From assembly GCF_026914265.1 (NCBI RefSeq), contig NC_069136.1, positions 26,982,701 through 27,046,700 on the forward strand: a stretch of DNA of 64,000 nucleotides, read 5' to 3'. Positions 23,902-60,902 of the stretch are shown in pieces; position 1 is the stretch's first letter, and each line of letters begins with the position of its first letter. The stretch is from Mya arenaria (Eukaryota > Mollusca > Bivalvia > Myida > Myidae). A program made the translations under genes and the position numbers. The notes beneath the pieces are model-generated. The model saw nothing but the letters and a program-made list of their open reading frames with translations, did not search any database and was not told where the DNA came from.

Positions 23902-23918
23902 AGTTATCGGAAAGGACA
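23902..23918 (-). repeat. Right terminal inverted repeat of ISL2EU-type transposon
   Basis: Exact reverse complement of the left 17-bp end, followed by AT. Confidence 0.9.
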
Positions 23919-23996
23919 ATTAGTTACTGTTACATTTAGTGACCATGGATACCATACGTGCTATGATTTAACGTGAAACCCACAAGCAGTTGACTC

Positions 23997-24535
<539 letters not shown>

Positions 24536-27856: not shown

Positions 27857-28480
27857 TATGCCCCCTTTTGAAAAAAGTGGGGTATATTGTTTTGCACATG
27901 TCGGTCAGTCGGTCGGTCTGTCTGTCTGTCGGTCGGTCGGAATACCAAATGGTTTCCGATCAATAACTTGAGAACGCTTTGACCGAGGGACCTCATACTT
28001 GGTATGTGTATTGGTCATCACCAGCAGATGAACCCTATTGATTTTGAGGTCAGTGGGTCAAAGGTCAAGGTCAGTGTGACCTTTACATGAAAAACGGTTT
28101 CCGATCAATAACTTGAGAACGCTTTGACCCAGGAACCTCATACTTGGTAGGTGTATTGGTCATGACCAGCAGATGAACCCTATTGATTTTGAGGTCAGTG
28201 GGTCAAAGGTCAAGGTCAGTGTGACCTTAACATGAAAAACGGTTTCCGATCAATAACTTGAGAACGCTTTGACCCAGGGACCTCATACTAGGTAGGCTTA
28301 TTGGTCATGACCAGCAGATGAACCCTATTGATTTTGAGGTCAGTGGGTCAAAGGTCAAGGTCAGTGTGACTGTAAGCTGAAAAAAGGTTTTCTGATTGTC
28401 CATATTTTATTTAAGTGTCCAAATCCTACTAACAATTTGGCTCCCAAGGGGGCATAAATGTTTCACTAACATCTCTTGTT
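27857..28480 (+). mobile_element. Pearl-like (Helitron-related) element A with three 145-bp units
   Basis: It begins at the tgcccccttttg block, then a gtcg/gtct tetranucleotide run (27899-27940), then three tandem units whose starts (ggtttccgat at 27951, 28096, 28241) are 145 bases apart. It closes with GGGGGCAT, a stem-loop (ATGTT/AACAT) and CTCTTGTT. A near-identical inverted copy is at 61031-61650. Tandem core, tetranucleotide and terminal hairpin fit what I recall of bivalve pearl/HINE elements. It has no coding capacity. Confidence 0.75.
28055..28082 (+). promoter_or_regulatory. Nuclear-receptor-like motif cluster in pearl unit 1
   Basis: The stretch reads GGGTCA-A-AGGTCA (a DR1 spacing), then AGGTCA overlapping as a direct repeat, then AGGTCAgtgTGACCT, a perfect palindromic oestrogen-type response element. 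Unit 2 repeats it at about 28200-28227; unit 3 keeps only the left part. Motif matches are exact; function is not shown. Confidence 0.5.
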
Positions 28481-29068
28481 TATCATTCATTATGTAGGGT
28501 TGCGAAAACAAAAATCATCAAAGACTCAGAAGCGTCTGTTTATATGGACTAGGAAAGGTCTATCATCTATACTTTCTGGCAATATACTGGAAGACAAATA
28601 CTTTAAAACAAGCCGTGTGATGACATGTTTTTATTATAATAATAATGTCTTATTGAACCATGACATATAAATTATGTTCACTTAAATGTCATAGAGACTT
28701 TTGACGATTTTAGTGCTTGTCAGACTTGAAACAGGGATACATAACAAATGTCAAAATGTGAAAAAAATCCCTGAACTTTAATTATTTCGGTTACAACAGA
28801 ACTATGCAGTTACTATTTTACCTTTTTATCAAATAAACATCAGGACCAGGGTCAACTATAGATGTCTTAGCATAAGTATACTGTATTTTATACATAAAAT
28901 TTATCTAGTCAAGCGGTAATGTTCACAGTCCAATGGCATGTGGTGATGCCACTATATGTTAAAAAAGTAATAGAGTTACTGCATTCACTAGTTATTGAAA
29001 GAATAGCGCCAGTTGTTTTAGGTAAAGTATGGGTTGTAAATTATCTGCGAACAACTAATTGCATGGTT

Positions 29069-29440: not shown

Positions 29441-29602
29441 GTTTAGATCCGTCTACATTTCCGTGTATCTGTTCCGATATGGGATTAAATTTTTCAGACA
29501 AAAACAAATAAATCTCTTCAACATGGTACAAGCCTGCTCCTGGCTGTAGGCCATTACCTATGTATATGCATATATATGTGTACATTCTTTTATAATCAAA
29601 GG

Positions 29603-34314: not shown

Positions 34315-37300
34315 TTATGTGAGTCTTTTGGCACGCATGTTGCCGGGAGTGCCGTACAGCTGTGGCTCCCGCGCCTTATAATGCTCGTTAAAGTCTAGAC
34401 GGAACGACAGGAAGCGCAGACTCACGTCCTGGTGGCTTGTCACCATCACCAGAAATTGCTGGACCATGTCCTGGAAATTATGGATTAAAAGTTTGATGGT
34501 CATTGAGTAGATAAAATAAGAGCTTGGCAGAGTGAACCCGAACAGTCGTCAATTTTTTTTCAGAAATGACAAACATTACTCGATAATAAAAAATGCAAGT
34601 TACAGATTTGGTCTTGCTAGACCTGGGCGTATAGTCTCTACCACGTTTTATTTGAATATCTTGAACGGTCTTAAGTAATGGCAAAGGTTCAAGTGTTTGC
34701 ACTATGATGATGCCAACGACAACGACGCCAAGGCTTTCAAGCACCTCAGTGTTTTATCTTCAATGAATTAAATTTTGTTATTGTGTCATACAGAATCAGT
34801 AGATTTCAGAAAAAAGATGCCAAAGCTCGACTGATTTTTCAGTTCACCAAGGGGCATAACTCAACAACTATGTAAGCCACAGTGATTGGCCTTTCTTCTA
34901 TTAGTATTATCAATATTATTGTTATTTCAAAGAGGTGCACTTAGGTTCATGTGAATAATTTAACAGTTTCTAAGTTATGGTCAACATTGTTGTCATCACA
35001 AGTTTTTGTATGAATCCAAAACCAACTACAATGATTATGTTAACATCAAGATTTTAAATTACAAAAGCAAAAATGTGCTACTACTTCAGTTTTAAAACCT
35101 TATTATAACTCGACATTCTGATTTCACCAATATATCTTAAGTTTGGCTACCGGACCAACTTTGTGAACACGCACCTGGTATGACTGTGCCAGGACGGCCA
35201 TCTTGGCTCGTGTAGAGGGTATCACTGTCTTGAGGAACTCCACCCGGCGAGCACGCTCCTCTTCCTCCATTGCCTCAGTAATGCCCCAGTCACCCTGAAA
35301 ACAGAAAATAATCTTGTATATGAATATATTCAAAGTTACTATCATTTAAAATTTCATTGCCTGGTAAACCCATTTTGTGTTTAAAATTAATGCAAAAATG
35401 GTCAAGCCTTACTATTTATCTAGGCTCAAATTGCAACATATTATAATGTATTTTGTAAAGTCAACTTAGGGCACAACTAAAAAATTACAAAAAAACAATG
35501 CTATGTGCTACATTCATGTCATATCATTTGAATATATTGAATGGTTTTTGAGTTGTGGCCAAGTTTGATGACGACAACGTGTACATCGAGGTTCTACAGC
35601 AAGAGCAATGCATACAGATGACAATGCTCTGGCGTGATTGGGCATTGATTATCTAACCTCACTAGTTCTCTGTCTCTGGAGCTTGGCATAATGTTGGCGG
35701 GCCAGAAGCTCATGTTGCGCTGTCTCATAGAAGGCGTCCTGGGCCTGCTGGAAGTCGATTATCAGATCGAATATCGTCCGCAGCTGGGTCAGAATGCCCT
35801 GGAGAGGAGGGATGGAAATGTTGAGGAAAATATAGAGATTATATTATAGGAAGCATAGAAGTTTGGTAGAGATATTTTCATTGTAAACAAATTCCCTTCA
35901 AATAGATAGTATATTAGAAATACTGGTACATTAGTTAGCTTTGTAGAACCTACTTTAATCGAAATACTGGTACATTAATTTTGTAGAACTAACTTTAACA
36001 GAAATACTGGTACATAAAATTTTATACTGGTACATTAACCCATACACTATGTACAATAATTCATGGTCTTCTACTGAAATGTTTTATATGTGATTAAAAT
36101 AGAATGACCAGTAGCCCACCACATGTATTTCATTAATTTTTCATTCAATGCTTTGTTTTCAACTATTAACCATGAATGGGCCTAGAAGTGGTTTGTTAGT
36201 AAACAAAGAAGACAAATCTTATTCTTTCTTGCAATATTGTTAACAGCACAGCAATCAATATTACCAAACAGCTCAAACCAGTTCACATGTTATGCAAATA
36301 TCAGGGGTTCTAACAGGTGGTCAATCCTGAAAAGTAGCTGGGTGCCTGTTCCACTAGGGATTCATGCCCAAACCAGAGTTAAGGGCTTGGACACTTCTTG
36401 AAATTATTTCCAAAAGTCATTTATATTCATTTCAATGAATGTCCTACTGTTTTCGTTTTAAATGTCTAAGGAAAAAATAATCTATACAATTGTATAATTG
36501 TCTGAAATTAAAAGATCCCAATCCTGAAATCAGGATTAAGGTAATCCTGAACTTTAGAACCCCTGGCTCCAATTTCTCGAAACCTCTTAAGTCCCTTATA
36601 ACAGGATCAAGCTAATCTCACTATTTTTGTTGTTCTATAAAATGTGTTCTATTTACTTATTAAAGAATTTTCAGAAATTATTTAGGAAAAATCTGTATGA
36701 TTATCAGAAAAAAACATTTTTCATTTATCAAAATCCATTTTCAGTATGTATTTTGGCTAATTGAAATAAGCGACTTAAGCCTGTTAAGCTTAAGAAGTTT
36801 CGAGAAATTGGGGCCTGAAGTATGATATGATTGTGTACAGTGATGATTTTATCTCCTTTTGAAACTGTTGTTAATTGGGTCTTTCAAATTATACAGGATC
36901 GAGGCAAACTGGTAACTAGGACTACTTACTGGCATTTGCATCTAGGTGAAACATTCATAAGTGATAAAAATCGTTAGGTTGTAAACTAGATATTATACTT
37001 AAACATACAGAAACTTTAAACCTGAACAGTCATAGGATAAACATGTACATTAAAACAAACATGAATCTTCATGCATTTAAAAAAAAAAACACACAACAGA
37101 CTATGATGGACTTCATTCTACAATCAGCTTAATGTCTGATTATCAACAAAGCATTTTCTGTCAATTGCGTGGCACAAGTTAGACCATGTCAAATTGATTT
37201 TATGCTTTAGCATCCAACAAAAAACAAACCTTAATATCTTTATTGATTTTACAAATAAAACAATCAAAAAGCAACGATCATACAACTTCAAAATAATCAC

Positions 37301-40300
37301 AGTCCATACATTTACAAAATTAAACTTCTCTTTGTATATCTTTACTCAGATGCTTATTTCATGAACTTACTGATTAAGCTCTTAAAAATCATATTTAGTT
37401 GATTGATTCAGACTTCGGTGAATGATTTTGTTCCTTTTGAAGGCTGAAAACCAACCTGTCTGATTATGCTAAACATTGAATCAATTTTGCCTGGCCTTAG
37501 AGCTAACACCAGCTTCATGTTCATGTCCTGAACCCTGCCCCACCACCAGTAAGCCACATCATACCCCCACCCCATCACCAATAAGCCACACTGTATTGTG
37601 AGCAGAGACCTGATATGTCACTCTCCCCCTACTATCATCATGCTAATTTACATGGAAAACAGATTAATGTCAGAATATGCACAAGATAACAAACAATTAG
37701 TATAACTATATGAAATTTCAAAAATTTCTTTCACAATGTTTCAGAATTTATTATTTATCTCTGATCTAAAGTTGAGGTAGTCAGCATATAATCTTGTTAT
37801 TAACGCTTATGCAAAAACTATCATGCAAGTAAAACAATTATTAACTATTCTTAATTTATCAAAATCTTTGCAAAAAGCAATAGATCTCTGCTTAAGATTT
37901 AGCCCTGATGCAGGAATCCATTCATTTTACTGAACTCAATAATACATCTACCCACCCTTGACTGTTCATCCAGAAGACACCGTGTGATAACAGTGTCTAG
38001 GAACACCTGATGCGCGGCTATAACACAGTCCAGGTCTTCCGCCTCCCGCACCTTCCCCAGTAGTTCATGCCAGGAACACTCAAGTACCTGGGGAATACAA
38101 TATTTACAATATAATGTTGGACCACACTATGTAATTAGTGTCTAGACACCTGATGCGCGGCTATAACACAGTCAAGGTCTTCCGCCTCCCGCACCTTCCC
38201 CAGTAGTTCATGCCAGGAACACTCAAGTACCTGGGGAATACAATATTTACAATATAATGTTGGACCACACTATGTAATTAGTGTCTAGGAACACCTGATG
38301 CGCGGCTATAACACAGTCCAGGTCTTCCGCCTCCCGCACCTTCCCCAGTAGTTCATGCCAGGAACACTAAAGTACCTGGGGAATACAATATTTACAATAT
38401 AATGTTGGACCACACTATGTAATTAGTGTCTAGGAACACCTGATGCGCAGCTATAACACAGTCAAGGTCTTACGCCTCCCGCACCTTCCCCAGTAGTTCA
38501 TGCCAGTAACACTCAAGTACCTGGGGAATACAATATGTACAATATAATGTTGGACCACACTATGTAATTAGTGTCTAGACACCTGATGCCCGGCTATAAC
38601 ACAGTCAATGTCTTACGCCTCCCGCACCTTCCCCAGTAGTTCATTCCAGGAACACTCCAGTACCTGGGGAATACAATAATGAATATGTACAATATAATGT
38701 TGGACCACACTATGTAATTAGTGTCTAGACACCTGATGCGCAGCTATAACACAGTCAAGGTCTTACGCCTCCCGCACCTTCCCCAGTAGTTCATGCCAGT
38801 AACACTAAAGTACCTGGGGAATACAATATTTACAATATAATGTTGGACCACACTATGTAATTAGTGTCTAGACACCTGATGCGCAGCTATAACACAGTCC
38901 AGGTCTTCCGCCTCCCGCACCTTTCCCAGTAGTTCATGCCAGGAACACTCTAGTACTAAATGAATTCTTACCTTAAAGCTGATGTAGTTCTTTGTCTGTT
39001 GAATGAAGTGAGTTATGAGGTACAGGTGGATTAAATGTGTCTATTTGAGACACAGGGAAAACATTGATACAGAAATTAATTCCAATCGATATACCTCAAA
39101 GCTGATGTAGTACTGTGTCTGTTGAATGAAGTGAACCATCTCACTTCCAAGAATGTGGCACTGGTGAAGAATTCGAGACAGTTCTGAAAAACACAGGATT
39201 CATATTACCCTGTCAGAGTGCTTTTGGCATCATAGGAATAATTCTATGAACAATGGTCCAAGTAAAAATATAGACAACCCTTTGAGTCTGTAAAGCTAAC
39301 TGAAGGGAAACTAAAACTAGGTGCTTGCATAAGTTTGAAAAATAGGTCTTATGTTAACATTGTAAGTATTAGTTTTGGTATCAATAATACTTCAAATATG
39401 TTATGTCATATAGTGATAAGTATTGCTTCATGTGTGTATTTAGATTTTGAGATAAATTTTAAGTGAAAGTACTTGAATCAGAAACTAGATTCATAGCGAG
39501 GATTCCCATAACTCTTTACGCTCGGGTTGTGTAAAGCATGATGTAAAAATAGATTCCTGTCACATGATTGTCCCATTTCTATGGCACACTAAACAGTCTA
39601 TGACAACATTTTTAAATTAAATGATTACAACTTAGTTTCTTCTTCTCTTTTCATATTTAGAAAACCCCAACAACTTCTTTCAACAGTTTTAAGACAGTGG
39701 AGAACTTATCATAAATGTTAATTAACACGTTTAAATAATTAACATTTGTCAAACTAAATTCAGTTCCTTTAAAAGCACTATGCAATACCACAAGAGACGT
39801 ACCAGGTAAAGACTCAAGGAGTTTTGAGTTGAAGATCTGGTTTTTCCATATAAGGGCAAGAACATACTCCATCCTTTTGGCGCGCCATAGGAAGTTGAAC
39901 ACCCGGAGGTACATTATCATGCACTCTGGGGTAAACACCTGCAGATACAGACATGTATATTATAATATTTATTCTATTCTTTATATTCTTTCTACCCTTC
40001 TCCATTATTATCTTCTTACTCTTTTTTCTTTAAACACTTAAATATTGAAAGATTAAATAACTGCTACCTGCTTTGGCAGTCACTCATATAGACCTTTTTG
40101 TACAATATGTTTTTGCGTGCGATATCACTCATACACCAATACTTAAAAAACAATTATTATGTAATACAAATATCAAGTATGCTATATTAATGTCTCATTG
40201 ATATGTATATATATGTTTGCAATGTGCTGTGTTGTATAATATTTGTTAATTTTGAATAATAATTTTTTTTTTTTATAATATTGATTATGGCTAAGCTGAA

Positions 40301-43300
40301 AAAAGCTGTTTTGAGAATTAAATGGTATATACATGTTCAATTCAATAGAATTTAATTTGATTTTTTTTTTCTTTATGAAACAATATAAAACTATTTCTTG
40401 ACCATTCTCCTCCCATACCTATGCACAATGTTATTAGTTAGTCCCTGAAGAGCATATCAGTACAAACAAGAGTGCTACGAAGCAAACATTAATGCTCATC
40501 TGTTTTTTTCCCTCTCACAAACTTGACACAACTCAACATTTATCAAATTTAGAGTTATGAGCCTTGCTTAACAAGTGCTTATTGTCCTTGGCAACAAGTG
40601 CACCAAGTTTCAAGCAAATATCTGGAAAATTTATTGAGTAACGACCAAGGTTTAAGTTTCGGCACAATGATAACTCTTTTTTTTAAGAAGAGATGAGCTT
40701 AAAATGTCATAAATCGAAAAATGAATACATTGAAACATGTGTTTTTATGGAAAGAACAAAGTTACGTACTGTTCTGATTGGTCCGTCCACATGATAGTCG
40801 AGACTGAACACATCCCAGCCTGTGTCTCCTGGGGATACCTGCAGGGAATGGTAATATTATACTCATGGGTGAAAGACTGACAACTTAAAAATATGCTATT
40901 TTAAGAATGAAATAACATTTTAACATAAGGTTTTTTTAACATTATAATCGTAGGAGAATTATTTTATAAAATACTGAGTTAAATATCATTGCAAAAAAAA
41001 AATCAACTATGTAAACTTACTCTAACTGGAAGCAAAAGAAGAAAATGTTATTTTGATTTAAAAGGGTTAAACATCCAGGTTAAAACTATTCTTCAAATGT
41101 TACTTTAACTTTTTCAAAGTACTCCTATTCTTGGTCTGCCATGCTTAGCAAGCAACACAAACGTTACAAATATTAAGATTATTTTTTTCCTTCTTTTCGT
41201 GAATCAAAACTAAAAAACAAACCTCAAGCAAGCGGACATCAAGCCTCTTAAGGATGTCTGAGTCGTCAAACTGTGCGTTAGTTCCACGTATAGCTGTTTC
41301 CAATATACCAGTCAAGTTGTGAAGATACAGGTTGGAGGCCGGCTTAGCTAGGTCCTCCCTGAATATAGACAGAAAAGTTTAATAGAAATAGTTACACACA
41401 CATGCCTTGACTAGCACTGTCACAAGAGTGATGACTACTCCCAGTGCTCAAAATTAACACAAGCCCGCAAGCCCTGCACTAGCAAAATGTCTTTGGGCTT
41501 GTTCATCCAAAAGTCTAATTTCAATGATTGTACTCCCACAAACTGCTTGGAACAGGTATATTAAACTATTTCTTTTAAAAGGGGCCATACCTCCTGTATT
41601 TCATGGTGTTCATCAAGTGTACCAAAAAGTATTTAAATACCCCCATATATCCCCCCACCCCCAGATTTTGTTTTGTGGGGGGCATAATAACAAAAACATT
41701 TGGCATCGCAATGAAAATGACACCCAAGACTTTCACAATACCTTGATTTCTTTTTCTCCACAAACAATAATCTAAATGCTTATCAAACGTCTTCTTTATT
41801 AATTCAAACCTCAAAATTGGTTATGTTACTTAAGCAGAACCAATTTTAACACAGCAAGTACAAAATTGAAAGCACATACTCTAATAAGTCCATAAGGTGT
41901 CTGATGAAATCTCCTTGTCCAAGCAACAGGTATCGCCGCATCGCCTGGAATATATCATGATTTATTTGTGAGCTGTGACAATCAAAAATGGATCATCTCA
42001 GTAATTTTTGAAGATGTCAGTTTTTATAATCATGTCACATGTTTTACATACAATTGATGGTAAATAACCATGAAAATATCTTTGACACTCTAAACTTGCC
42101 ACTTTGTAGGGGCTGCCAGTTTCTTTGCAGTGTAACAGCTAAATATTATGTCATGTTTCTGATATATCATATGAACGATAACACCCATTTCTGCTTGACA
42201 CTGCTCATGAATCTCTGTTATTTTTAAATACCATGTATTTCAAGGCTTACAAAACTGGACAATTAGCCAGATTTAAACTCGCTGAACCAATTCCATTTTA
42301 TTGTTAATTCTATTTTTAATATCTACCCAAAATGGCTAACTCAGTGGCACATGTAATACACATTTTTCATTATTAAACAAGAGCTGTCACAGTATGTGAC
42401 GAATGCCCCCCGAATGTGACATTGACCTATGAACAAGGTCAGTACATGAAAAGTTGATCCTGCCTTTACGTGTCAAATACATATGGCAAGTTATTTTAAA
42501 TTGCCTCTAAACATAAAAAAATACCACCGATACTTGACAACCGACACTGTTATGTCCTTATAAGCAGCATTCCATTGTGAATAAACACTAAGTGTGACCT
42601 TGAACTTAGAGGTAGGGACATGGGTATTGCACATAACATGTCGTCTTGGTATGTCGGACACATGTGGCAAGTCATTTTAAAATCTGTCCATACAAGAGAA
42701 AGTTACAGCCTGGACACTACAACCTATACTCTGAGTCCATATATAATATGCAGCATTCCATTGTGAATAAACACCTAAGTGTGACCTTGACGTTAGAGGT
42801 AGGGACACGGGTCTTGCATGCGACACATCGTCTTGGTATGTGGAACACATGTGGCAAGTTATTTTAAAATCTGTCCATACAAGGGAAAGTTACAGCCCTG
42901 ACACGACAATTTATACTTTATGTCCTTATATGCAACACTCCATTGTGAATAAACACCTAAGTGTGACCTTGACCTTAGAGGTAGGGACACGGGTCTTGCA
43001 CCCAACACGTCGTCTTGGTATGTGGAATACATGTGGCAAGTTATTTCAAAATCTGTCCATACAAGGGAAAGTTACAGCCCGGACATGACAACCTATACAC
43101 AATGTCTTTATATGCAGCACTCCATTGTGAATAAACACTTAAGTGTGACCTTGACCTAAGAGGTAGGGACACCGGTCTTGCACGCCACACGTCGTCTTGG
43201 TATGTGGAATACATGTGGCAAGTTATTTCAAAATCTGTCCATACAAGGGAAAGTTACAGCCCGGACACGACAGCTTATACTCTCTGTCCATATATGCAGC

Positions 43301-46300
43301 ACTCCATTGTGAATAAACACTAAGTGTGAACTTGACCTAAGAGGTAGGGACACGGTTCTTGCATGCGACACGTCGTCTTGGTATGTGGTACACATGTGGC
43401 AAGTTATTTTAAAATCTGTCCATACAAGGGAAAGTTAAAGCCCGGACACGACAACCTATACTCTATGTCCATATATGCAGCACTCCATTGTGAATAAACA
43501 CTAAGTGTGACCTTGACCTTAGAGGTAGGGACACCGGTCTTGCACGCGACACGTCATCTTGGTATGTGGAACACATGTGGCAAGTTATTTCAAAATCTGT
43601 CCATACAAGGGAAAGTTACAGCCTGGACACGACAATCTATACTCTATGTCCTATATGCAGCACTCCATTGCGAATAAACACTAAGTGTGAACTTGACCTA
43701 AGAGGTAGGGACACGGTTCTTGCACCCAACACGTCATCTTGGTAGGTGGAACACATGTGACAAGTTATTTTAAAATCTGTCCATACAAGGGAAAGTTAAA
43801 GCCCGGACACAACAACCTATACTCTATGTCCATATATGCAGCACTCCATTGTGAATAAACACTAAGTGTGACCTTGACCTTAGAAGTAGGGACACGGATC
43901 TTGCACGTGACACGTCATCTTGGTATGTGGAACACATGTGGCAAGTTATTTCAAAATCTGTCCATACAAGGGAAAGTTACAGCCCGGACACGACAATCTA
44001 TACTCTATGTCCTATATGCAGCACTCCATTGTGAATAAACACTAAGTGTGACCTTGACCTTAGAGGTAGGGACACGGGTCTTGCACGCGACACGTCGTCT
44101 TGGTATGTGGAACACATGTGGCAAGTTATTTTAAAATCTGTCCATGCAAGGGAAAGTTACAGCCCGGACACAAGTTATTGAGCCGGACACACAGACGGAC
44201 GGACGAACGGACGGTGCGATTTTAATATGCCCACCTTTGGGGGCATAAAAATAATATTTTCAACATCTTTACCCAGCATAATTAACATAGTATTTAACTG
44301 AATTTTCTCACCATCTCCTGCGTATTATCTATCCAAGAGAACTTTACCATTTACAGTAAAATTTGGTAACTATTAACTGTCACATTGACTCCTCAATACA
44401 AAATCTTACTGTATTAAAGTTTACCTTAAGGTGGTCCATGAACTTGTATTTTGCATGTAGCACATCGAGCAGGTGTCGACTTGTCTCCTTGTATACCTTG
44501 TCGATCATGTCCTGGAAGTTATTACTTTGGTCCTGGGTGAACATCCACTCGGCTGAAATGTGTACATCAGTTTTATGCGCGATACAATAGATCCTGGTCA
44601 AATACCCATCCTGCCAGAATGTGTACACCTTGTCAATCATAAGGACGTCCTGACTCTGGTTCTGGGTAAACACCACTCTGCTGAAATATGCACACTACAT
44701 TTGATTCTAGTCAAACACCCACTCCGCTTAAATGTGTACATCAGTAGATTCTGGTCAAATAACCACCCTGGAGAAATGTGTACACCTTGTTGATCAAGTG
44801 GAAAGTGTTACACTGGTCCTGGCTGAACATTTACTTCGCTGAAATGTGCACAATGTTTGATTCTAGTCCATCATCAACTTGGCTAAAATGTAGACACTGA
44901 AAGTTATTTTTTCACAATTATGATAGACAAATTTATACAGATAAGGTTTTTATTGTCCAGGCATATGAATTGATGCACTAACATATGCTCAACCTCCATT
45001 TTATAACCATGCAAAGCAGGCTTGATGTAGGTGGTCTAAAAGTATAGATGTCCAAATTTCCACCAGGTTTTGGTTTTGGTTCAGACCAGGGATACTTTCT
45101 TATTACCTCTCAAAAAGAAATCAGCACTGCTTTTTTCCCAGGAAGGAGTAGGTATATTGGTGAGATGTATCAGTTTTCAAATGTCTGCACAATCTAGTGT
45201 AAAACTTATTATACAAATCCCTTACCCTGACTCATATCGAAGGCCATAGCCATCTCTCTCCCCGGGGTTGGGGTTCGGTCCTGACAAACCTGGCGGAGAA
45301 AGTTGATGGACTTTCCTGTCAACAGGATCTAAAATGTAACATAAATGATAATGATAACAATATGGGCTGCCAAGACAATAGTAATGATTTTGGCTGCCAA
45401 AGGGTTAGAGTGTTGACACAATTGGCAGTGACCTTGACCTAATGGCCCCAAAAAGATAGGGGTCATCTACTGGTCAAAGGCATTTTTCAGGCTAAGTTTA
45501 AGGGTCTAAGGTCAATCTGTTCTTTGTAAATGAAGCCAGGGTACTAAGAAATGTAAAAATAGCAACAAAATGCCTAAAATTGTGAATTTACAACAGCATA
45601 TTTCAACAAGAAAACAAAGCAAAGGCACTTTAAGAAACAGAATGCGAAGAAATTTAAGAGATAAGGAATGCATTTAAACATTACTGTACTAGATGACTTG
45701 TTAAAGTTGAAAAATTCTTTATTTTGGAGACAAAAGAAACACTATAAGCTAACATCCCAATTAAATATTAGCTATCCTTTAAAGATAAATAATGTAAATA
45801 TAACCGAAACATATAACAAAATTAACTAGAGATTGCTTTTTTGAAAAAGCGCTTGTCTCTCCCATTGTGTGGTTGTAGGTGAAAAATAATCAATGATGGA
45901 CATTAAATTTGTACTTTTGGACGGGAGGCAATTACCAACTAGCATACCAAGTATGAAGTTTCTGGGTGCAAGCATTCTTTAGTTACTGAGCGGAAACCGT
46001 TTCTTCACCTCAAGGTCACAGTGACCTTGACCTTTGACCTACTGATCTCAAAATCAGTAGGAATCATCTACTAGTCATGACCATCTAGCAAATAAAGTAT
46101 GAAGTTCCTGGGTACAATCATTCTTTAGTTATTGAGCAGAAACCATTTTTAAGCTAAAGGTCACTGCCAACATATCGTTTTTTGCATAAAGATAACCTTG
46201 ACCATTGACCAGGGCTTCCATTAAGAATTTGAAACTGGAAGTATAGACTTCCTGTCCATCAATATTGGAAGTTTTTCACTGAAATGTGGAAGTTTAAGTC

Positions 46301-49300
46301 TCCCCGAATACACTTTTTCCAGTATTTTTAAAATAGGATGACAGATGTTAAAAATCAAATAATTTGAAACAATATATCTTGCCGAATTCACAGATTTATA
46401 TTATAATAATTCATTTTACTTCAAGACTGATTGAAATTGTGTGCATAAAAGTAATATTGACACCAGGTTTTGATATTTTGAACTTCCAAGCTTTTGACTT
46501 TGGAAGTTTTCTTCAAAATTATGGAAGTTTTTGTACTTCCAAGGAATTAAGTTTGGAAGTTTAAACCTATTTCTAGGGGGTAATATACTTCCAAACTTCC
46601 TTTAACGGAAACCCTGATTGACCTTTTGATCTCTTAATCAATAGGGTTCATCTACTAGCCATGAACAACAAGCATACTAAGTATGAAGTTCCTGAACCCA
46701 AAGGATCTTTAGTTATTGAGCGAAAACCAATTCTTCACCTCTTCTTCATTTCTTCCTTGGTCTAAGCGTTCTATAGTTATTGAGTGGAAACGAAGTGATG
46801 TAGTGACGGACTGACTGACTGACGAACAGGGCAAAACAATATGTCTCCCCATGAATGGGGTAAACATAAAAATAAAATACTTATTTTAAAAACATACATG
46901 TAATCAACTTAAAATACCAAACAGAAACACAAATAAATATTTGCATTAAAACAGCAACAAATATACCGTTATGTAGGTTATTGTCTATATTTTTGCAAAA
47001 AAAGATGAATAGATTTATTCTGTAAGAAATACATGATACATTGTTTACTAAAAAAAAACATGTGTAAAATAATTAAAACATTAATAACCTCACGAGCCAT
47101 AAAAAAAACATCACATGAACACCTACACCATGGATGACTCAATAAAGAGTCAACTCTTATTTCCATAGTAAGATTCAATAGATATAAACAATTATCGGTA
47201 AGGCTTGAATTCTTATGACCAATTGTAATTTAAATACTTTCTTTTTACGTGTTCATTCTTTGACTGTGATGACAAAGTGTAATTTAGCATTGAAATGTAA
47301 CAGTGCTGACATAGTTTACATAACTCCATGACAAGAAAACACTGATTTTCATAAATAACGTTGAGCAGTTAATTTTTTAAAGACTTTTAAGCCTCAAATT
47401 ACACATTCTTATGTCAAAAATTTTGACAGTTTCTCTCTGGAAGTTTAATTTTTTTTTATATAAATGAACCATCGTATCAATTTTGCGAAAAAAACTTCCA
47501 GGGTCATGACAGGGAAACAAACTCTTTGAGCTTGATTTGTGGTGATATAGGCTGTAATTACAGCGAATAACACAGGATTACCGTACTATGTAAACAAATG
47601 GCACTGAATACACTAAAACAGGTGGATTTCAATAACAAAAGTATCTCAAGAAGTTACCCTGCGAGCTTGGTCTGTGGTTATATAAGCTGGAATCATTGAT
47701 TTCCGTAAACTGTATTTATCGTGCCATAATCGGTCATTCTTCACAGTTGGGTCAGCAGCAACAAAGAACTGGAATAGAAGGGTGAAGTTGTGAAGTGCAT
47801 TTATTTCTGTCAATTTTTTTTTTAAATCGCATAATTTATATGTACTGAAGCATGCTTTTATTTTGCAAGGTCCTTTTTCGCAGTTTGGGTTATGGGCCAA
47901 CTTCCCTTAGTGTCAAATTTTTTACACCATTTTTGAAAACTTGTAATTACACATGTGCATATATATTGTCAGTGGGCACATGTGTAGAAAGTAAAATGTG
48001 GATATCTTGTTTAATGTTTTTTTAGTTATGGGTATGGTTGAAGTTTTTGCCTTAAAACACCGAGGATGTTTGGACATAAACTCAACATTTTTCTTGATGA
48101 AAAAAAAAGTAACAGACACCTAATAATCGGTAATTAATGTTTTCATATATGTAAGGTTTTAAATTTGCAACCTGGTTGATTTGCAAAAAAAACACCATAT
48201 TCTAAACTATTACAAAATCTAATCAGTCTAGCATATTTATCCATTTTGTTATCATATTTTAATGCCCACATATTATGAAAGACTTGTTGAACAGGGTTTA
48301 TTGTAAAAAAAAATCTAAAAATTATATGAATGAATATACAGACGCATAGCTAGGGCCAATTAGGGATTACACAGATCTATGCCGGACTGCATACTAACCC
48401 CTTCACCCCCTTCCCCACTTCAGTTTTTAGTTCAAATTCAGGGTTTATGGGATGACAAAGAATTTGACCTGTCAAAATTTCATTACGGAACTGCATATTA
48501 ATTTTGTGTACAGTCAGCTACGCGCCTGATATGTGTTCTTAATAAAAGATCAATGAACAGTCTGTTTTGATATATAATACAAATACATGCATGCGGGATT
48601 TATACTGTAAACAACTTCTTTATAAGACCATGAATAAATACCATGGCAACATCATGGTGATAATTTCTTTAAGCATACACAATCCTAGAAAAAAACATAA
48701 AAGAATCATAGATATACAGGTACAATACATTATTAAACAGTTATTTACAAAGTGTTTGCATTACATGTGCAAAAAGTAGACTTGTTGAGTAGGATATTAA
48801 AACAGTAAAGGTAATATACATGTAACAGTTACCTATAGTATATATAACCTTTCATGTATAAATGCAATAATACTTCTGATGTTATTCTAAACAGATGCCT
48901 CCTTATGGGGTTGTTTTTCATAAAGACAAAACTTCAACACTCCATCCTTAAATGTGTTTTAACAGTTTGGAAATTTATTCACAGACAAGCAAACTCAGAA
49001 AATGTACTCATCGCCTTTCACATTTTTCTCAGACAACCCATACATGGGATTTCCATCTCCCTGAATCCTGAGGTTGTATTCATAAAGCTTCAAAATTAAA
49101 TGTTTCAATATAGTGAATTCCATCAGTTTTACAAATCTCTTGAGAACACTACCTAGCAAGGATGTAAGAAACTAGAGCTATCACTGTATGTGATATATGC
49201 CCTATCACAGCACCTTCTAGTAATAGAACAACCATTGTCCATGAAAAGGCAGCAATTCAATCAATGCTCCTATATCATATTATATCATATGGTGCAGGAA

Positions 49301-52300
49301 TAGTGAAAAGATGACATCGCTAAAAATGCCAAATTTCAGACAAAGTGATTGTAATATAGCCCTAACCACCAAATGGTGGGGTTATCAATAACAAGCTTAT
49401 ACTGGTGTATCATATTTATTTATTAAAACATCACTAATAAATATATCAGTTTTATAAAGTCCCTGTATTTTCCAACATATTCATGTGCCATTATTATATG
49501 GAATTTTACAGTTCATTTTTTTATATCTTTAGTGTAAAAACTGTGTTAGTTTTCTTTAAATTCAACTTAAACAAGAGGCCCAAGAGGGCCTATGCTCTAC
49601 TGGCATGGCTCACGTGGTCATTTTCAATCCAAAGCATGTACGTATGAGTAATAGGCAACAAATACATAGTTCACTTTTTGTGTTTGGGTTAGCCGAAAAC
49701 ACTGTACAATCAACATCTGAGGACAGAAAGTGTTGTAAGCATTTTTTTGTTTTTACTATGATGCTTTATGCATATGGTGCCTGGATTAAACAACATGTGT
49801 ATATACCTCATCATGAGTGTCCTCTAGTTCACCATCGTAGATCCATCTCAGCAGGGTGGCATAGATCGGCTGGGACACCTGCACAGTAGGTAAATAACTC
49901 CATTGAGGTATTAATTTAACTGTAGTAGTAGGGCACAGTGTACAAAACTGTAGAATCAGGTACCAAAATGAAGCAAATAAATGCATCAGCATGACTTTTT
50001 TAAATAATAATTCTTTAATACAATTTTCACAAAAATCAGTGCCTTGGTGAAACGCCATTGTTAACCTTTACGCTAGCTACACCAAACCATAATACCTACT
50101 GTACCAGATCATTAAGCTAACTACACCAAACTGTAACACTATCTACACATAACTGTTACACTAACTTGACCAAACCATTACACCAACTGCCCCAAACCAT
50201 TACGCCAACTGCCCCAAACCATTACATCAACTGCCCCAAATCATTACACCAACTGCGCCAAACCATTACACCAACTGCCCCAAACCATTATGCAAACTGC
50301 CCCAAACCATTATGCCAACTGCCCCAATCCATTACACCATCTGCCCCAAACCATTACACCAACTGCCCCAAACCATTATGCCAACTGCCCTAAACCATTA
50401 CACCAACTGCCCCAACCCATCACACCAACTGCCCCAAACCATTACACCAACTGCCCCAACCCATCACACCAACTGCCCTAAACCATTACACCAACTGCCC
50501 CAAACCATTATGCCAACTGCCCTAAACCATTACACCAACTGCCCCAACCCATCACACCAACTGCCCTAAACCATTACACCAACTGCCCCAACCCATCACA
50601 CCAACTGCCCCAAACCATTACACCAACTACCCCAAACCATTACACCAACTGCCCCAAACCATTACACCAACTGCCCCAACCAACTGCCCCAATCCATTAC
50701 ACCAACTGCCCCAAACCATTATGCCAACTGCCCCAATCCATTGCACCATCTGCTCCAATCCATTACACCAACTGCCCCAAACCATTATGCCAACTGCCCC
50801 AATCCATTGCACCATCTGCTCCAATCCACTACACCAACTGCCCACAAGCATTATGCCAACTGCCCCAATCCATTACACCAACTGCCCCAAACCATTACAC
50901 CATCTGCTCCAAAACATTACACCAACTGTCCCAAACCATTATGCCAACTGCCCCAAACCATTACACCAACTGCCCCAAACCATTATGCAAACTGCCCCAA
51001 ACCATTACACCAACTGCCCCAACCCATCACACCAACTGCCCTAACCATTACACCAACTGTCCCAAACCATTACACCAACTGCCCCAAACCATTACACCAA
51101 CTGCCCCAACCAACTGCCCCAATCCATTACACCAACTGCCCCAAACCATTATGCCAACTGCCCCAATCCATTGCACCATCTGCTCCAATCCATTACACCA
51201 ACTGCCCCAAACCATTATGCCAACTGCCCCAAACCATTACACCAACTGCCCCAAACCATTATGCCAACTGCCCCAAACCATTACACCAACTGCCCCAAAC
51301 CATTACACCAACTGCCCCAAACCATTATGCCAACTGCCCCAAACCATTATGCCAACTGCCCCAAACCATTATGCCAACTGCCCCAAACCATTATGCCAAC
51401 TGCCCCAAACCATTACACCAACTGCCCCAAACCATTATGCCAACTGCCCCAATCCATTACACCATCTGCCCCAAACCATTACACCAACTGCCCCAAACCA
51501 TTATGCCAACTGCCCCAAACCATTACACCAACTGCCCCAAACCATTATGCCAACTGCCCCAAACCATTACACCAACCTAACCACTATGCCAGCTATACCA
51601 AACTAGTGTGCTAATTACACCAAATCATTAAGCTTACTTTACCAAATCATTAACAAACCTCACCACACTAAAGTTAACACAAGTTCAACCATAGTAAGGC
51701 TTTAACATAAGCAATTAAATAAAAAACGTTTCAAATACCTACCATGGTTAGAATATGTTTGATTAGGGACTTGACAAATGGGTCACCATGTTGCATGTAG
51801 GAATAGATAGTTGAAGCCAACGCTCCTCCCTTCTTCCCTGTAATGTATTTCAAACAGGCAATGAATGGCACTAGTAGAAGTATGAATATAAACAATATAT
51901 AATACGAAAAATTGTTTCTCTAAATTTGAATTTCCAAGATCCTAAAACCAAGTAATGAAAACGCACAATCTAAATATGAAAACATGGCTGTCTTTCTAGT
52001 GATTTTTCAGACCCTGAAAAGTAAGGGCACTGTCCCATTCCTCTAGATAAATTCCTGGAAAAGTTGTGACATGTTTTTCTATGACTTAAAGCTTATATTT
52101 GATTATGCTCCAGTTATGTGAAAAAAAACACACACAAAAATTCCAGTCATTTTCCCAAAATGCGGGGGAAACAAACTGTGTGATACAACCTTAAGGTACA
52201 TATCAATACAATTTTACAACAAAAATGCTAAAATGAGAAAATTCTATGAAAATGATATGCATACTAAAATACACCCTGGACATTGTCTCACCTTTACACA

Positions 52301-55300
52301 CATCAACCAGGGCTGCAAGGGTCTTCAAACGTATGAGGGGGTCGAATGTCCACACGACCAGCCGACGTAGCGTAATACTGCCATGTGTCGCCAGCCCAAT
52401 ACCCTGGTCAACCTCATCTTGTATCTTGAAAAAGAAGATAAACAGGTATCATGGTCAAAATTTCTCCTTTAAAACAGGATTAAGCTTAGCTCACTATTTT
52501 AGTCTTTCTAAAATTTGCATAATATTTACATCTTTAAGTGTTTTTTTATAGTTGTTCTCTTTATTTCAATCACGATAAGCCATTTGTTTGCAACTCTTTG
52601 TTTAGTTTAGGTGAGTCAGCCTTTTTACCCTTCTTTGCCGTAGCAGATACCCAGCTACTTCCCCAAGGGCCAGACCCTTTTTTTCCCTACAAAAAGCCTC
52701 TGAAATTCCACATCTAATTTTTTAAATTTCATATAATTAAAAATCTCACAATTCATCAAGAGATGTTTCTGATTGAAATATTGACTGCTTTATTGTTGTT
52801 TGTTTTTACTCTAGAGAATTTTTGCCCAAAACTTGAAAAACAACAAAAAGGGCTAGGTTGTGTTCCCTGCAAGTGGTAAAAAGGCCGTGATGTAAAATTG
52901 TTATTAGAACAGGCAACCACATTGGTCATCAGAACAATAACATTGTCAGCTGTTTGATCTCTTAAACAGTCTGTCTACTATAGTCTCCATTTAAGGGCTA
53001 TTCCATTCAAACATACAACCCCCAGGGGGAAGGCACTTTTAAATTATGGCACCCCCCTACAGAAGCAAATTTACCCTTGTGGAGTCCAAATGAGCGAAAA
53101 AAGACACCCACGTATATACTATTTAAATAATTGCCTTCCCCCCGTGGGTTATATGTTTTACTGGAATAGCCCTAAGGAATGAGACACCAGATGGTCCTAA
53201 AATCAGCAAATACATTAATTCCACATAACAAGACTAGAATTGTCATTTACAAGCTAGTATGAGGCTGATAATACATCTTTTTACATGATTTAAAGAATAT
53301 TTTGTCACTGTCTCTGCTGAATTTACCCGTTTAAAAATAGCGCATAATGGTTTCCCATTTTATAGTGAGTATAATAAGCATGTGCTACGTTTAAATTAAC
53401 TGGAATTTACATAGACAAACCCAGTAAATTTCATATTAAAAAAGTATGAAAAACTCTAAAAAAGTACATGTGCCATAAGCCAAGTGAAACATCAGTACAT
53501 TCAATGCGTTGTACACAGTGATATCATATTATAAATCTTATGTAAGTTTTTGGCAATTTTCTTTTTTTTCTTGCAATTGTATCATCTAGTGTCCAGTCCC
53601 TTTAATTCCCTTTATTTCTTACCTGAGATTCCAGCACAGCTATGAGTCTGTAATATTCTGTCAGTTCCTGTTGTAAAGCTGCACAGAAACTCTGGAAATG
53701 TAAAAGTCCTGCATTGACTACATTCACAAGTGTCTTATGACATCGTATACAAAAAATTACATGTATGTTATCATTAGTAATGATATAAAATCAAAATTTG
53801 TGTCAACTGAACAAATACACTTTTTGAAAGTGAGAGTAGTCTAGTAGTATAGGTATCCACCTCTCACCCAAGCGGTTTCAATCCCCACTATGGGTGTCTT
53901 CTCATGGCCTCTCATAACAATCAAGCTTAAAGAACAGAGTATAAAACTAAACAAATACACTCCATAAAACTAATTAATGGGTAAGGCCTGAATGCAAATA
54001 GGTACAGTTTGAGTTTTTATTAAATGATTTCATTGGTTTTTACCAATTTACCAAGCTTTAATATTGATGACATTGGTAAAAAAATATTTTGGGGTAAGTA
54101 TAAAAAAGACGATATCCATACGCAAATATATGCCAATACAAAATCTAACAAAATTTTAACAATCTTCAGTACTGGCAAGTGTCAGGTATAAAATTTCTTA
54201 AAAGAACAACATCATTACATCAAACTTCTACACAAAACATTTCAGGGGTTTACTGATTTGCTAAAATATTTTTTCAACTCCTTTTTGTATTTATAAAGTC
54301 AAATTGGGAATTATTTCAAATTTAGAAAAAAATTCTTGCATTGGGAATTTGGCTAAGTTTGGTAACAAATTGGTAAGAAAGTGAAATAGGGAATTTGGGA
54401 ATTGTTTAACATTTTGGGAAAAAGATCATGTTTCTGTATTCAGAATGACACCATTTTGGTTGCCCCAAAATTGTTAATAAGAAAAAAACACCACTGAACC
54501 CTGAAGTAAGCATGTATACCTGTCCCACCAGTCCAAATGTCTTGTCTGCACTCCGTGTCTCAACGTAGTTTTTCACCTTGTTAAACAGCCAGCCACACTC
54601 AGCCAGTTTGCTCACTAGCTGACGAATGGCTTTAGGAATGCCAGCCTGAAAAATGTGTCACATTTTTGTTACTAGGCATGGACCTGTGGGCCGTTTCAAT
54701 TTTAGTGACTTCAATAATCTGAAATTTGTATAAATGTCACAAATGGTAAAACATGACTTATTTTATTTCATCACTTTGTTTTTAATTCTGACTAAGTTTT
54801 AATTCACTCAAATAAGAACCAAATAATGAAATTCATCTCCATTGCCCTCCTTCAAGTGTATATTTTTTAGGAGCATTGACCTCTTAACATTTGTAGCAAT
54901 AAAGACATTTTTCAAAAACATGGTGATTCATGTAAGATCCCTCAAATACATAAAATTAAAAACAATTTTTAACAATTCCTTGATGATAAAGTGCAAATCA
55001 TCAACAAAGCTCTAGGCAGCAATCAAACGCGGGATCATCATATCTGGAGTCTGATTTCACTAACCACTTTTCAATGACCACCCATATGATTTCCATACAC
55101 TTCACATACCTGGGCGTCGACCTTATATCCGTCTTTGGAAGGGTCAAAGTGAACCCATTTGCCCTCAATGCCTTGAAAGACGTAAACCAAGTCACGGACA
55201 AGTTCAGTCTCCGGGATCTCAAAACTCGCTGAAATATGAAAGTAGAGCTGCAGCCTAGTGTATAAAACAGGTCAATTTTTATTTGGTCAAAATTAGCCAA

Positions 55301-58300
55301 AACAATTGCCAATATTTATCCAATAGTTGGTATTAACCAATCAAATCATTTAAATTTGCAATCTAGCCAAAAGATAACCGGACAACATCTCAAAATGTTA
55401 TGCAATTGGTCGCAGGTGTCAGACAATAATACAACCTTGCGTAAAGTTTCATTGAAAAAAACTAAAGTATCAAACATTCCTTAGCCAAGATGAAAGTGTC
55501 TTTCAAGTGTCTGCAATCCGAAAGATCAAGCTAAAATCCCACAAACTGGATATGTTGCTTGTCTGAAGTGCCCATCAATAAAGCTTGACCTTAGACTTAC
55601 TGGCCCACAATTAATTAGGGATCATCCACCGACCATGATGAATGCGCATACCAACAAAAAGTCATTAAAAGGTTACTGGCTGGAAACAACACCGTGATGC
55701 CGCTATAGCCATATAAAGGAATCTCTATAGATGTGTTTACAGCAGATCACAGGTACTGTAAAAATGTGAATGGAAGTAGACAGAATGTATCTTACTATTC
55801 TCCCCCTGGGCTTTCACCGTGCTTCTTCCACCTCTAGGAACCACAGCAGAACTCGATTCTGGAAGCAAATACAACATTTGCTATTATGCAATTACGGACT
55901 TTCATTGATCATAGCAGATTTTACAGTCTAAGTCAGATATGGTGTGTAGTATATAAACAAGGGAGTTGTGGTGCAAACCACAATGCTTATCTGTTATTTT
56001 CAAGTCGAAAAAGACAATTATTTTGCCTGAGTTATAGGCTTTGCCTCTGGCAACATGTGTACCAAGTTTGGAAAATCATGAATGGCTTTTGAGTTATAAA
56101 CAAAGCTTTTTGCATAACAATGACGCGGACAATGACACCAACGCTCTGACGATACCCCAACTTTTTATTTTCCCAAAACAGACCAGCTAACACAAAGTTT
56201 TTTCTTTGATTCTGGGACATTGACTTGATTATTTCTGATACTCTGACGTGAAACTTTAAAAAATACTGCTTACTTCCCTGCGTATCAGGCGTACAGGTCC
56301 AAAAAAACAAACACACAAAAATCTAAAAAAATACAAGGATATTCTTTCTTCAAAATCAGGAAGACAAGCAAATAAATATATTTAAAGTCTAGAACTGACC
56401 TGTGTCCCTTCTGGAGACAGCCCCAACCAGACGAGACATGGCGGCATGTCTGTGTGTCTTGTCGCCATCCACAGATGCAAATGTTGTCCTGGAACAGAAG
56501 AAAGGTTGAATATTTGTCATCAAGAACCTTGGGTGACTAACAAACTCCTGGAATGCAAGGTTTTGTATTTCATTCACAACATGGCACATCAGGGACAAGG
56601 CCATACCTAATTGATTCACTGTTTAGCGTCTTATTCCCATTTGACGTACCAAGCTTGAGTTATTACTATGTATATCACCATGGATACCAATACAGCCAAC
56701 AACCACCTTTCCATGGCAGAAATGAGTCATTTCTATGGATATCACCATGGAAACCAATGCAGTCGTTACTATGGATATCACCATGGAAACCAATGCATCC
56801 AACAACAACCTTACCTTGGCAGAAATGACTGTGGTACGGGGGTGGGGTCATTACTATGGATATCACCATGGAAACCAATGCATCCAACAACAACCTTACC
56901 TTGGCAGAAATGACTGTGGTACGGGGGTGGGGTCATTACTATGGATATCACCATGGACACCAATACATCCAACAACAACCTTACCCTTGCAGAAATGACT
57001 GTGGTACAGGGTTGGGGTCTTTACTATGAATATCACCATGGATACCAATACGTCCAACAACATTCTTACCTTTGCAGAAATGACTGTGGTACAGGGTTGG
57101 GGTCTTTACTATGAATATCACCATGGATACCAATACGTCCAACAACATTCTTACCTTTGCAGAAATGACTGTGGTACAGGGTTGGGGTCTTTACTATGAA
57201 TATCACCATGGATACCAATACGTCCAACAACATTCTTACCTTTGCAGAAATGACTGTGGTACAGGGTTGGGGTCTTTACTATGAATATCACCATGGATAC
57301 CAATACGTCCAACAACATTCTTACCTTTGCAGAAATGACTGAGGTATGGGGTGGATTATTACTATGAATATAACCATGGATACTAATTTAATGAAACCAA
57401 TACAACAATAACCTTACCCTGGCAGAAATGACTGCGGTACAGGGGTGGGGTCGTTACTACGGATATCACCATGGATACTGCTGATTCCACTACTGCCTGT
57501 CGTGTCAATGGAGTGTATGGATGGGGTTCCACCTGCATGAACAAAGTGACAAGTATGATAATCAACAAAACTAAAACTAAAGGAGTTAATTTTTACAACA
57601 TAGCAAAAGTTCCATATATACTTCTTATGTGATATTAAAGGCTTACAATATAGGTTGAGGATTTTTATTCCTGAGTCGTAATGCTTTATTATGTTTAGGC
57701 GTACAAAAATAATCTGTTTTTGGTTTCAGGCCCACAAAAAATAGGGTAGGTACTATGTAGGTTTGAAAATCTTTTTGATTACTTAGTTCATATAAAGCTT
57801 AACAAACCATGGTGTTCATGTGACCCAGGCCCAGGCATAAGTCTCCTCTGGGCTGCTGCGTTGAAAGGGGTAGACGTCGCATAGGCAGGGAGCCCTTGGC
57901 CAAATAGTAAACTGGTCGACTGAAACATTATTATCATTTCTACTAATTAATAATTGTTTTCTATATTGCATTATATTTTTACCACTTATGTTTTTTATGT
58001 ATTTGTATCATCCAAATACATTTAGTAATCTGGTTGGCTCAAATATGACCATTTGTAGGTGTGTTATGATCACCATATTATGTATATAAAAAACAAACAT
58101 TTAAAATGTAAAAGTATTAAACGAAGTGCAGAAACACAACATAAAATAAGTCTGGTCTTAACAGACCCTAGATTAGTGTTTTCCAATTTCGGCAATAACA
58201 CATATAGGGTGGGCGAATTAGTGCAACAAAAGTAAGTAAAAAATATCTGTAGTCTAACTACCAGTGTTTTCTCTTCATCCTATTTGTTAATAGTGCCTTT

Positions 58301-60866
58301 AAAACTGAAAATAGCGACAAAAAGACTAAAATTGTGAATTTACGAAAGTATATTTCAAACAAGGAAACAAAGCAAAGACATTTTAAGATACAGAATTTGA
58401 AGAATTTTAAGAGATAAGGAATAACTGTACTATTTGACTTGTCCAGAGTTGAGACAAAAAAAATTAAAAAATTGAATTGTTAATTTTGAGCCCATTTTTT
58501 GCCTTTGGTGAAAAATATTCTTTTTGGGATTGCAAATGGGACTGAATTTTGGCCCCATTATCAGTTAAAAAAACCCATAAACTACTAAATGTCACCCTTA
58601 CCTTGTCACGAGCATGTCTGGCCTCGCTTTCACTGATGGACTTTAACACATGCAACACTGCCCATCTGTTCTTGACCAATCCCTACAAAAAGCATATAAA
58701 ATTGAATACAAGGAATATAATATTATCAATACTATTCTATCTCAAATAGGTTACTGTATTTACAAATCATACTTTTTATCTGAAAGAAGACAGAAAATTG
58801 TTAACCTATGTGCATTATTAAATGCCGATCTTTTGATTATTCAAACATTATATAAGAATAAAGGAATTCATTGTCCTTTTCTCAATAAGTTCATTATGAA
58901 ATTTAAAAGTAACTAAGAATATACTGTTAAAAACAAGTTATATTAATTTAGTAAAAATGCAATGTATTAAGATAAAAAAAGTTGTATATCATGATTTTTT
59001 TGTTCACTATTTGTCATGTTTACAGTCATTGAAATTAGACTTTTGGATGAACAAGCCCAAATTCCTATACAGAATACTATTGTTTGGCATCAAATTTTCT
59101 AACAAGCCCTGCTATATAAAATTCAGAATTAGAACAAGCCCGGAAGACATTTTACCAGTTCAGGGCTTGTGGGCTTGTGTTAATTTAGACCACTGTGTTT
59201 ATGATCTGTATATGTTTTTATGAATAAAAGGATCACCTCTAATGGTTCAAAAAAAACAACAAAAAAACCTACGAACAACCATGACAATGAACAATTAAAG
59301 CAAGTGGATGCCTGGACACACACCCTTATTACAGTTGATCAAGTGGTTATCATAATTATATAATAATATTGACATTTTTAAAGTCAAGTCAAGAGGCATA
59401 ATGTTATTGAAGTTTTTTTTTAATTTTAATGAATAATAATTAACTCATTTGACTTTATGATCAATACAATATAAACAAAGCATATGATTATCGAACAGAT
59501 AAGAACAGAAGAAAAAGATATAAGTGATATTTTGGCACTTTTTTAACTGGGGAATTTGTGGCTACATAGCTATTAAATGAAAAAGTGATTTTTATCATAT
59601 AAAGGCTGATGTCTTTTTAACAGTACACAAATCATAGGTGTACATAAATCATATGCTTTTTTTGGTCAGAATGATGAATAAATTCTGAAAAATATCACAT
59701 AATATATTTTATAATAAGGAAAATTCAAATTCATTAATTATTCCATTTTTGGATGATATTTTATCATTGTAACAAGCATTTTGTTTCCATTTCACACAAA
59801 ATATTTTTTTTCGAAGTCTGACCCTATAAAAAGAGAATTTAAAAGGAATATTGCATTTTTATATTTCCATCTATATATTAAGTATGTTTTTACCAGAATA
59901 AAAACCTAAATAAATGGTAAATAAACTTCTTTTTTTTTTCAACAGATTAGTAAAAGCCAACCTGTGTCTGTAGCTTTCTGTGCAGTTCTGCAAACGTGGC
60001 AGCATCCTTTTCCCTTCCACGCCTTACCACTGTACCAAGAAAAAAATCTAGCTCTATATAAAAAGTTGGTGAATTTTTCTTATAATTTGGTATTAATTGC
60101 AAATAACTGCAAATAACCAGTGCTCTTAATATTATGTAAACTAAAAAAATCAATGTTTACAGGTAAAAACATGGGTAAAAAGTTGATATTTTATCTACTA
60201 TATATTCAGCATTTAAGTCAGATTTTAGCGTTAAAGGAATATAAATTGTTCTTTAATATTTGTATTGAGTATAATACATATTAAATATATTGGTATGACT
60301 TTCAATTTGCTTACAGACCATACTATTTTTGGGAAGTTGTTATAAACTCCAGAATCAAGAGAAAACATTTTTTATTTCAAAATATTATTAACAAAAAATT
60401 TAAAAAATGTTCTGCTTGCTCTGAATAAATTCATAAAAATCTGAGGTCCAAGTCGGCATAATACAAGAAAGCATGTTATATTGGCTTTAACAGTAATATC
60501 ATTCAAATCAGACAAATAATGACAGATCTACTGCATGGATCCATACTTACACTGCTTTCTTATTCTCTCGGAAACCTGGAACTCATCATTGTCCACAGGC
60601 AAGCTTGAAGAACTGAAATATAAAAAAAAATTAGTGGCATTATCTCGGTAATTATATTATTTCATTTCATCATTAATGAAGTAGAAATTATCTGTAAGAG
60701 TTATTGAAACACATTCTATTGTAGATATGTCAAAAACTGACCCAGTCTAAAATATACAGGTTAGGCCTAAAAAAAAAATACATTTGGTTCGGGTTACCCG
60801 ACCCTACCTACGGAATAGGCGCCGACCCTACCGTTTTTATAGTCAGTTTGAAAAAAAAATGAAAAA

Positions 60867-60902
<36 letters not shown>

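Follow-up and report, generated by a model that had tools for sequence, protein, structure and literature searches.

The window analysed here is a stretch of 64,000 nucleotides (nt) of Mya arenaria DNA (C15:26982701-27046700), whose minus strand holds the gene TUBGCP3, and our subject is the copies of its exon borders: half-exon copies adjoin 5 of the 26 exons that we mapped (e06, e14, e16, e21 and e22). The 26 exons, when joined, encode 877 residues in one frame; AG precedes all 26, GT follows 25 and the last exon ends at a stop codon. The last two exons were added to a map of 24 on the basis of peptide patterns and splice sites; first-exon peptides of TUBGCP3 were sought in the window for the first coding exon, and were not found. 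The features are as follows.

34315..61845, minus strand: TUBGCP3 gene, 26 exons mapped, with an 877-aa open reading frame (ORF) across them
57418..57532, minus strand: exon e06, functional copy (exon map)
56646..57416, minus strand: array downstream of e06, 8 extra copies of the exon 3′ half, the 5′ splice site position and an intron piece
47658..47768, minus strand: exon e14, functional copy (exon map)
47521..47558, minus strand: single decayed copy of the e14 end and GT (79%; E 6e-4 in the whole window, 3e-5 locally)
44425..44552, minus strand: exon e16, functional copy (exon map)
44553..44897, minus strand: decayed array upstream of e16, 3′ splice site and exon 5′ half, long and short units mixed (by eye)
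39095..39183, minus strand: exon e21, functional copy (exon map)
38969..39011, minus strand: single copy of the e21 end and 5′ splice site (93%, E 2e-10)
37956..38087, minus strand: exon e22, functional copy and last unit of its own array (exon map)
38088..38956, minus strand: array upstream of e22, 6 decoys of the exon 5′ part in units of 143-150 bp

The product carries the Pfam domains GCP_N_terminal and GCP_C_terminal (in the 841 residues from the first 24 mapped exons), its top match among the solved structures of PDB is a GCP3 homolog, and M. arenaria GCP3 isoform X1 matches it at 97% over 100%; the name TUBGCP3, given in a first-pass annotation made from the letters alone, is thus confirmed. 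That annotation had also listed fresh arrays at exons 57532-57418 and 38087-37956, a decayed array at exon 44552-44425 and a partial duplicate of exon 39183-39095, and all of these were recovered. At e06, Tandem Repeats Finder (TRF) reports 85-bp units at 56762-57478 in 8.3 copies, with matches to the exon plus 40 nt down to E 2e-22; at e22 it reports 143-bp units at 37992-38956 in 6.7 copies, with E down to 2e-52. Upstream of e16 lie three decayed copies (44852-44779, 44745-44700 and 44694-44622) at 77-80% identity and E 4e-12 to 2e-6, and at e21 there is the one 93% copy. Its claim of several border copyings in a single gene holds at 5 sites, the fifth of which (exon 47768-47658) was missing from its list. 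The copies differ in age, diverging from their exons by a few per cent up to 23%.

All five sites share one geometry: copies of 5′ splice sites (e06, e14, e21) lie downstream of their exon, and copies of 3′ splice sites (e16, e22) lie upstream. The units straddle the intron-exon border and both border types are affected, as in the minisatellites named mirages in amphioxus. Exons with 40 nt on either side were compared with the whole window for the 24 exons then mapped, which gave local copies at 5/24, and later by a local search for all 26. The automatic filter of the latter returns 6/26, the sixth (e02) being a 25-bp poly-T tract that we removed by hand to give 5/26, a removal applied to exon e02 only and not to the random segments used for comparison below. 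At the thresholds used, no complete exon copy with both splice sites was found for 24 exons window-wide or for 26 exons within 1.5 kb, and tandemly duplicated (mutually exclusive) exons were rejected as a description. We also considered a retrocopy near 38969-38956, where about 15 bp separate the e21 copy from the first e22 copy and the two are in frame; by eye the intervening piece resembles the start of intron 21, and a pair of neighbouring arrays that lost intron sequence between them seems likelier.

A second GCP3 locus lies on C4, in a copy of the block that extends over at least 97 kb, with 96.3% identity over 73.6 kb in aligned pieces of at least 400 bp. In the C4 gene all 26 exons recur; 11 of 2636 coding nt and 3 of 877 residues differ from the window, and P0002 contains exactly the 877-aa translation of the true exons at C4. 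Both loci have the five border families, with arrays that differ in length. The e22 array reaches 46.6 units of 145 bp (6.8 kb; L012, C4:62102228-62109049) at C4 versus 6.7 in the window; counted with the exon there are 47 units versus 7 (46 versus 6 decoys), and the two loci have their own unit variants. The e06 array has 8.3 copies in the window versus 5.3 at C4 (4.4 in a second TRF row), an intronic 181-bp array 9.0 versus 5.9, and a 44-bp array 32.7 versus 35.2. Array length thus looks to change quickly, as far as two assembled loci can tell. Because of the identity over the block and the few coding differences, the C4 locus is likely to be an unpurged allele, although it could be a recent segmental duplication; a paper on an M. 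arenaria assembly describes haplotig purging and high heterozygosity (PMC10663159). Several kinesin matches in the genome are also paired, with tied scores at two places, and this suggests that uncollapsed haplotypes are common in the assembly.

A genome-wide DNA search (1.216 Gb), which covered the e22 and e06 units and skipped very common words, found 54 matches to the e22 unit, 7 on C15 and 47 on C4 and none elsewhere; the 10 matches to the e06 unit are all at the two GCP3 loci. Since the units match only there, the e22 and e06 arrays were most likely made on the spot.

The e22 arrays also bear on the exon itself. In the window as at C4, 1 of 81 nt separates e22 from the nearest unit, and one other unit per locus is equally close; the remaining units (4/6 in the window, 44/46 at C4) differ from the exon by 3-9 of 81 nt. 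Of the 11 differences between the loci in 2636 coding nt, 3 fall within these 81 nt of e22 (binomial P = 0.004, for a comparison chosen after looking), and at both loci the nearest unit agrees with the exon beside it at all three sites. The C4 base at position 6 occurs in 44/46 C4 units, and the window base in 4/6 window units and 0 C4 units; at position 49, where the window encodes E and C4 encodes K, the C4 base is found in 4/46 C4 units and 0 window units; at position 55 it is found in 6/46 C4 units and 0 window units. K at this E/K site is also found in Solemya, Gigantopelta and Lingula. Because these substitutions are common to the exon and its nearest unit at each locus, the coding exon e22 is, to judge from them, a participant in the turnover of its array, and the copying may run in either direction.

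Taking these observations together with the comparisons set out below, we think it very probable that the arrays are mirage-type minisatellites, which arise from ordinary tandem duplications across an exon border, survive since one complete exon remains, and are general in this genome. A tandem duplication of about 35-160 bp would happen to span one exon border; with a single border copied, one complete exon with both of its splice sites would stay in place and the extra half-exons would fall in the intron. A duplication inside an exon, or of a whole exon, would alter the protein and presumably tend to be removed by selection, whereas half-exons, with no strong partner splice site, would be largely silent. 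Once two copies were present, slippage or unequal exchange could enlarge and homogenise the array, coding exon included. The first duplication probably used short end identity, through replication slippage or template switching, as two junctions suggest: in a kinesin gene, exon GGAAAGAG and 5′ splice site GGTAAGAG; and at e16, TATACA and TGTACA.

The first-pass annotation had proposed that a process local to GCP3, or one linked to transcription, turns exons into satellites by slippage or repair while they are transcribed. Five families of various ages in one gene would fit this. Our comparison sample comprised 20 kinesin exons from 132 matches, picked before their flanks (±350) were seen, 5 more added later (±250), and four non-GCP3 exons of the GCP family, three from one neighbourhood on C6 (L001, L002, L007) and one on C3 (L005). 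Border copies adjoin 1/25 kinesin exons and 2/4 exons of the other GCP-family genes, 3/29 in total. The kinesin case is a P-loop exon (L045, C9:23517787-23518700) with the end ...KSYTMMGRSDEAQQGIIPQ, after which come repeated copies of that end with a 5′ splice site. L005 has a 79% copy of the exon 3′ part, 133 bp off, on the 5′-splice-site side, and in L007 a 34-bp unit that includes the 3′ splice site recurs many times on the upstream side (exon ends by eye in both). Hence copies adjoin 8 of the 55 exons tested, or about 1 in 7, and in 8/8 cases (5 in GCP3 and 3 in other genes) they lie on the predicted side. The rates of 3/29 and 5/26 do not differ significantly in this small sample (P = 0.45), which supports a process that is general in the genome and not peculiar to GCP3.

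Introns of TUBGCP3 are copied about as often as its exons. In the whole-window search, 305/1000 random intron segments of the gene were copied locally (191 with a complexity filter), as were 110/1000 random segments of the rest of the window (42 filtered), beside 5/24 exons (4 filtered); when the exon set was shifted round the gene, a mean of 6.9 matches was obtained, with at least 5 in 119 of 131 shifts. Random intron segments over-count large arrays, so arrays were collapsed to one founder unit, and founder families were also placed randomly. In the local search 104/300 intron segments had copies with arrays uncollapsed and 39/300 with arrays collapsed (39/300 in the rest of the window); against these the 5/26 exons give P = 0.13 and P = 0.37, respectively, and 6/26 with e02 included gives P = 0.15 against the collapsed count. 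A rule on low 3-mer diversity depends on its form: one form loses the genuine e22 array (leaving 4/24 exons) and another keeps the e02 poly-T (6/26). At the level of segments, exons are not copied significantly more often than introns. Tiling of the gene gave 10 duplication families, 5 that touch exons and 5 confined to introns; intron-only arrays lie at 42471-44173 and 50062-51668 (181-bp and 22/44-bp units). Intron-only arrays of the gene behave as the border arrays do, change in copy number included.

With 3/29 other exons alike and introns copied about as often, a process specific to this gene or its transcribed exons is unsupported, and we consider it unlikely. The earlier view had been staked on such arrays being rarer in random genes, and the comparison runs mostly against it, the kinesin exons leaning the other way. 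Its assertion that the pattern is not chance survives for the individual matches, which are beyond chance, but not for their rate, random intron segments being duplicated about as often.

Several points nevertheless weigh against the reading that we prefer. Kinesin exons taken alone, at 1/25, give P = 0.19 against GCP3 (0.10 with e02 included). At the level of founders, with footprints set by hand, 5/9 families touch exons versus 2.2 expected (P = 0.041), or 5/10 versus 2.3 (P = 0.061); this leans weakly towards an excess at exons, which may reflect selection keeping the exon partner so that its copies stay recognisable for longer, and a modest excess in GCP3 or at exons may remain, being compatible with all of the tests. 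The short end identity comes from n = 2 junctions. Lastly, a submitted M. arenaria ‘GCP3-like protein’, P0020, includes one decoy as coding sequence.

This last point raises the question of whether selection retains the e22 decoys as alternative exons: each unit holds a cryptic CAG|GTGT donor, which together with the unit's 3′ splice site would bound an 81-nt in-frame cassette (27 residues). The frame is free of stop codons in 2/6 window decoys, and P0020 carries a 24-residue stretch twice in tandem. However, P0020 is by eye without several true exons and looks a poor model; only 1/6 window decoys combines an open frame with an intact 3′ splice site; and at C4 only 5/46 units read, the last being the real exon itself, have an open 81-nt frame. 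Of those 46 units, 44 have AG at the exon start, with AAG, a weaker acceptor, in place of CAG in 38. The AAG variant could suggest selection against strong decoys, and is probably the mark of one amplified founder. On balance we regard the use of the decoys as selected alternative exons as improbable. Splice signals are nevertheless retained in many of the repeats, as in mirages, with 7/8 e06 donors and 5/6 e22 acceptors intact: on a simple matrix built from TUBGCP3's own sites, 7/8 e06 decoy donors score 9.7-10.2 versus 9.7 for the real donor, and 5/6 e22 decoy acceptors are identical to the real one. Read-through past the true e06 donor meets an immediate stop codon. The submitted clam model, which already has a decoy half-exon as coding sequence, is a warning for annotation.

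An assembly artefact, in which long-read assembly invented or miscounted the repeats, might account for the 7-fold gap in copy number between the two loci, but we hold it very improbable: the five families recur at both loci, and their units stand several per cent apart with structured variants. If the assembly is the one described in PMC10663159, it was moreover built from PacBio long reads with 10x polishing. That a dispersed satellite or transposon was inserted beside the exons can hardly be true, for although transposon-like repeats with internal arrays exist in the window, the border units hold exon sequence itself and those of e22 and e06 match nowhere beyond the two GCP3 loci in the genome-wide DNA search.

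The window also holds other repeats and ORFs. A 630-bp element occurs at 27853-28481 and 61030-61655 in opposite orientations, at 99.0% identity, and contains a 145-bp array of three units. It has the look of a mobile element that carries a minisatellite inside it, and an 80% relative lies at 45931-46164. Pfam identifies a DDE_Tnp_4 transposase ORF at 18501-19574 (plus strand) and a YqaJ-domain ORF at 21276-22460 (minus strand); the interval with both (16597-25863) has no long alignment to the C4 locus, which has a 2.5-kb assembly gap. ORFs at 29600-31500 (plus strand) seem to resemble DNPH1.

Gao and Lynch 2009 and the Rogers model reportedly deal with internal gene duplication and with the gain of introns from tandem arrays. 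There, as in the clam, tandem duplication inside genes copies splice signals; the clam case differs in that no new intron is shown.

The closest parallel comes from amphioxus. Amphioxus globins have the same border-spanning arrays, where they were named mirages and Adh3 was cited (PMC3087553); PGBD5 was later added and troponin C mentioned (PMC3902484). In both species the units cross an exon border, 5′ and 3′ borders are both affected and many AG/GT signals are kept (PMC3087553, PMC3902484). The BflGb6 mirage, with units of 150-160 bp in 6 and 3 copies on two haplotypes, compares with the e22 units, and amphioxus mirages show concerted evolution within clusters, the boundary units excepted (PMC3087553, PMC3902484). 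Somatic length instability is reported for the Adh3 mirage, and splicing was examined in amphioxus by reverse-transcription PCR. Mirages are described as leaving regular splicing undisturbed; in the clam, P0002 agrees with the true exons at C4, but P0020 includes a decoy. The clam case is unlike amphioxus in its bivalve host, in having five families in one gene and up to 47 units, and in the substitutions common to the coding exon and the unit closest to it. Tandem exon duplication is described as taking part of the adjacent intron along (PMC6071210), and in tandem or mutually exclusive exons whole exons are copied and used (PMC9013439, PMC6071210); in the clam, by contrast, half exons with one splice site are copied.

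Among the entries listed from the open-licence literature, most of them judged from the title and start of the abstract, none reports arrays of this kind from a mollusc. Nor did those entries include a description of the pattern for GCP3, of which the first-pass annotation knew none either, but the pattern itself is known, under the name of mirages. What is new is the mollusc host, the 7 versus 47 units at loci that are about 96% identical, and the finding that a coding exon and the copy nearest to it have substitutions in common.

A larger claim would be that minisatellites in this clam often originate at exon borders, and that the arrays exchange sequence with the functional exon. A housekeeping protein would then change together with its half-exon copies, and the exchange could bring in a stop codon, which most of the decoys hold. 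We offer this tentatively, as a possibility that we would rather bet against than for. If true, the dozens of near-identical decoy splice sites would be a natural experiment on recognition of the true exon by the spliceosome, and new exons could arise from them.

The mirages in the literature that we searched come from amphioxus genes only, and a bivalve case would mean that the process is more general, and fast, because about 1 in 7 of the bivalve exons tested carry border copies and array length differs 7-fold at near-identical loci. With sites that are almost identical, these arrays also offer a natural setting in which to test how splice sites are chosen.

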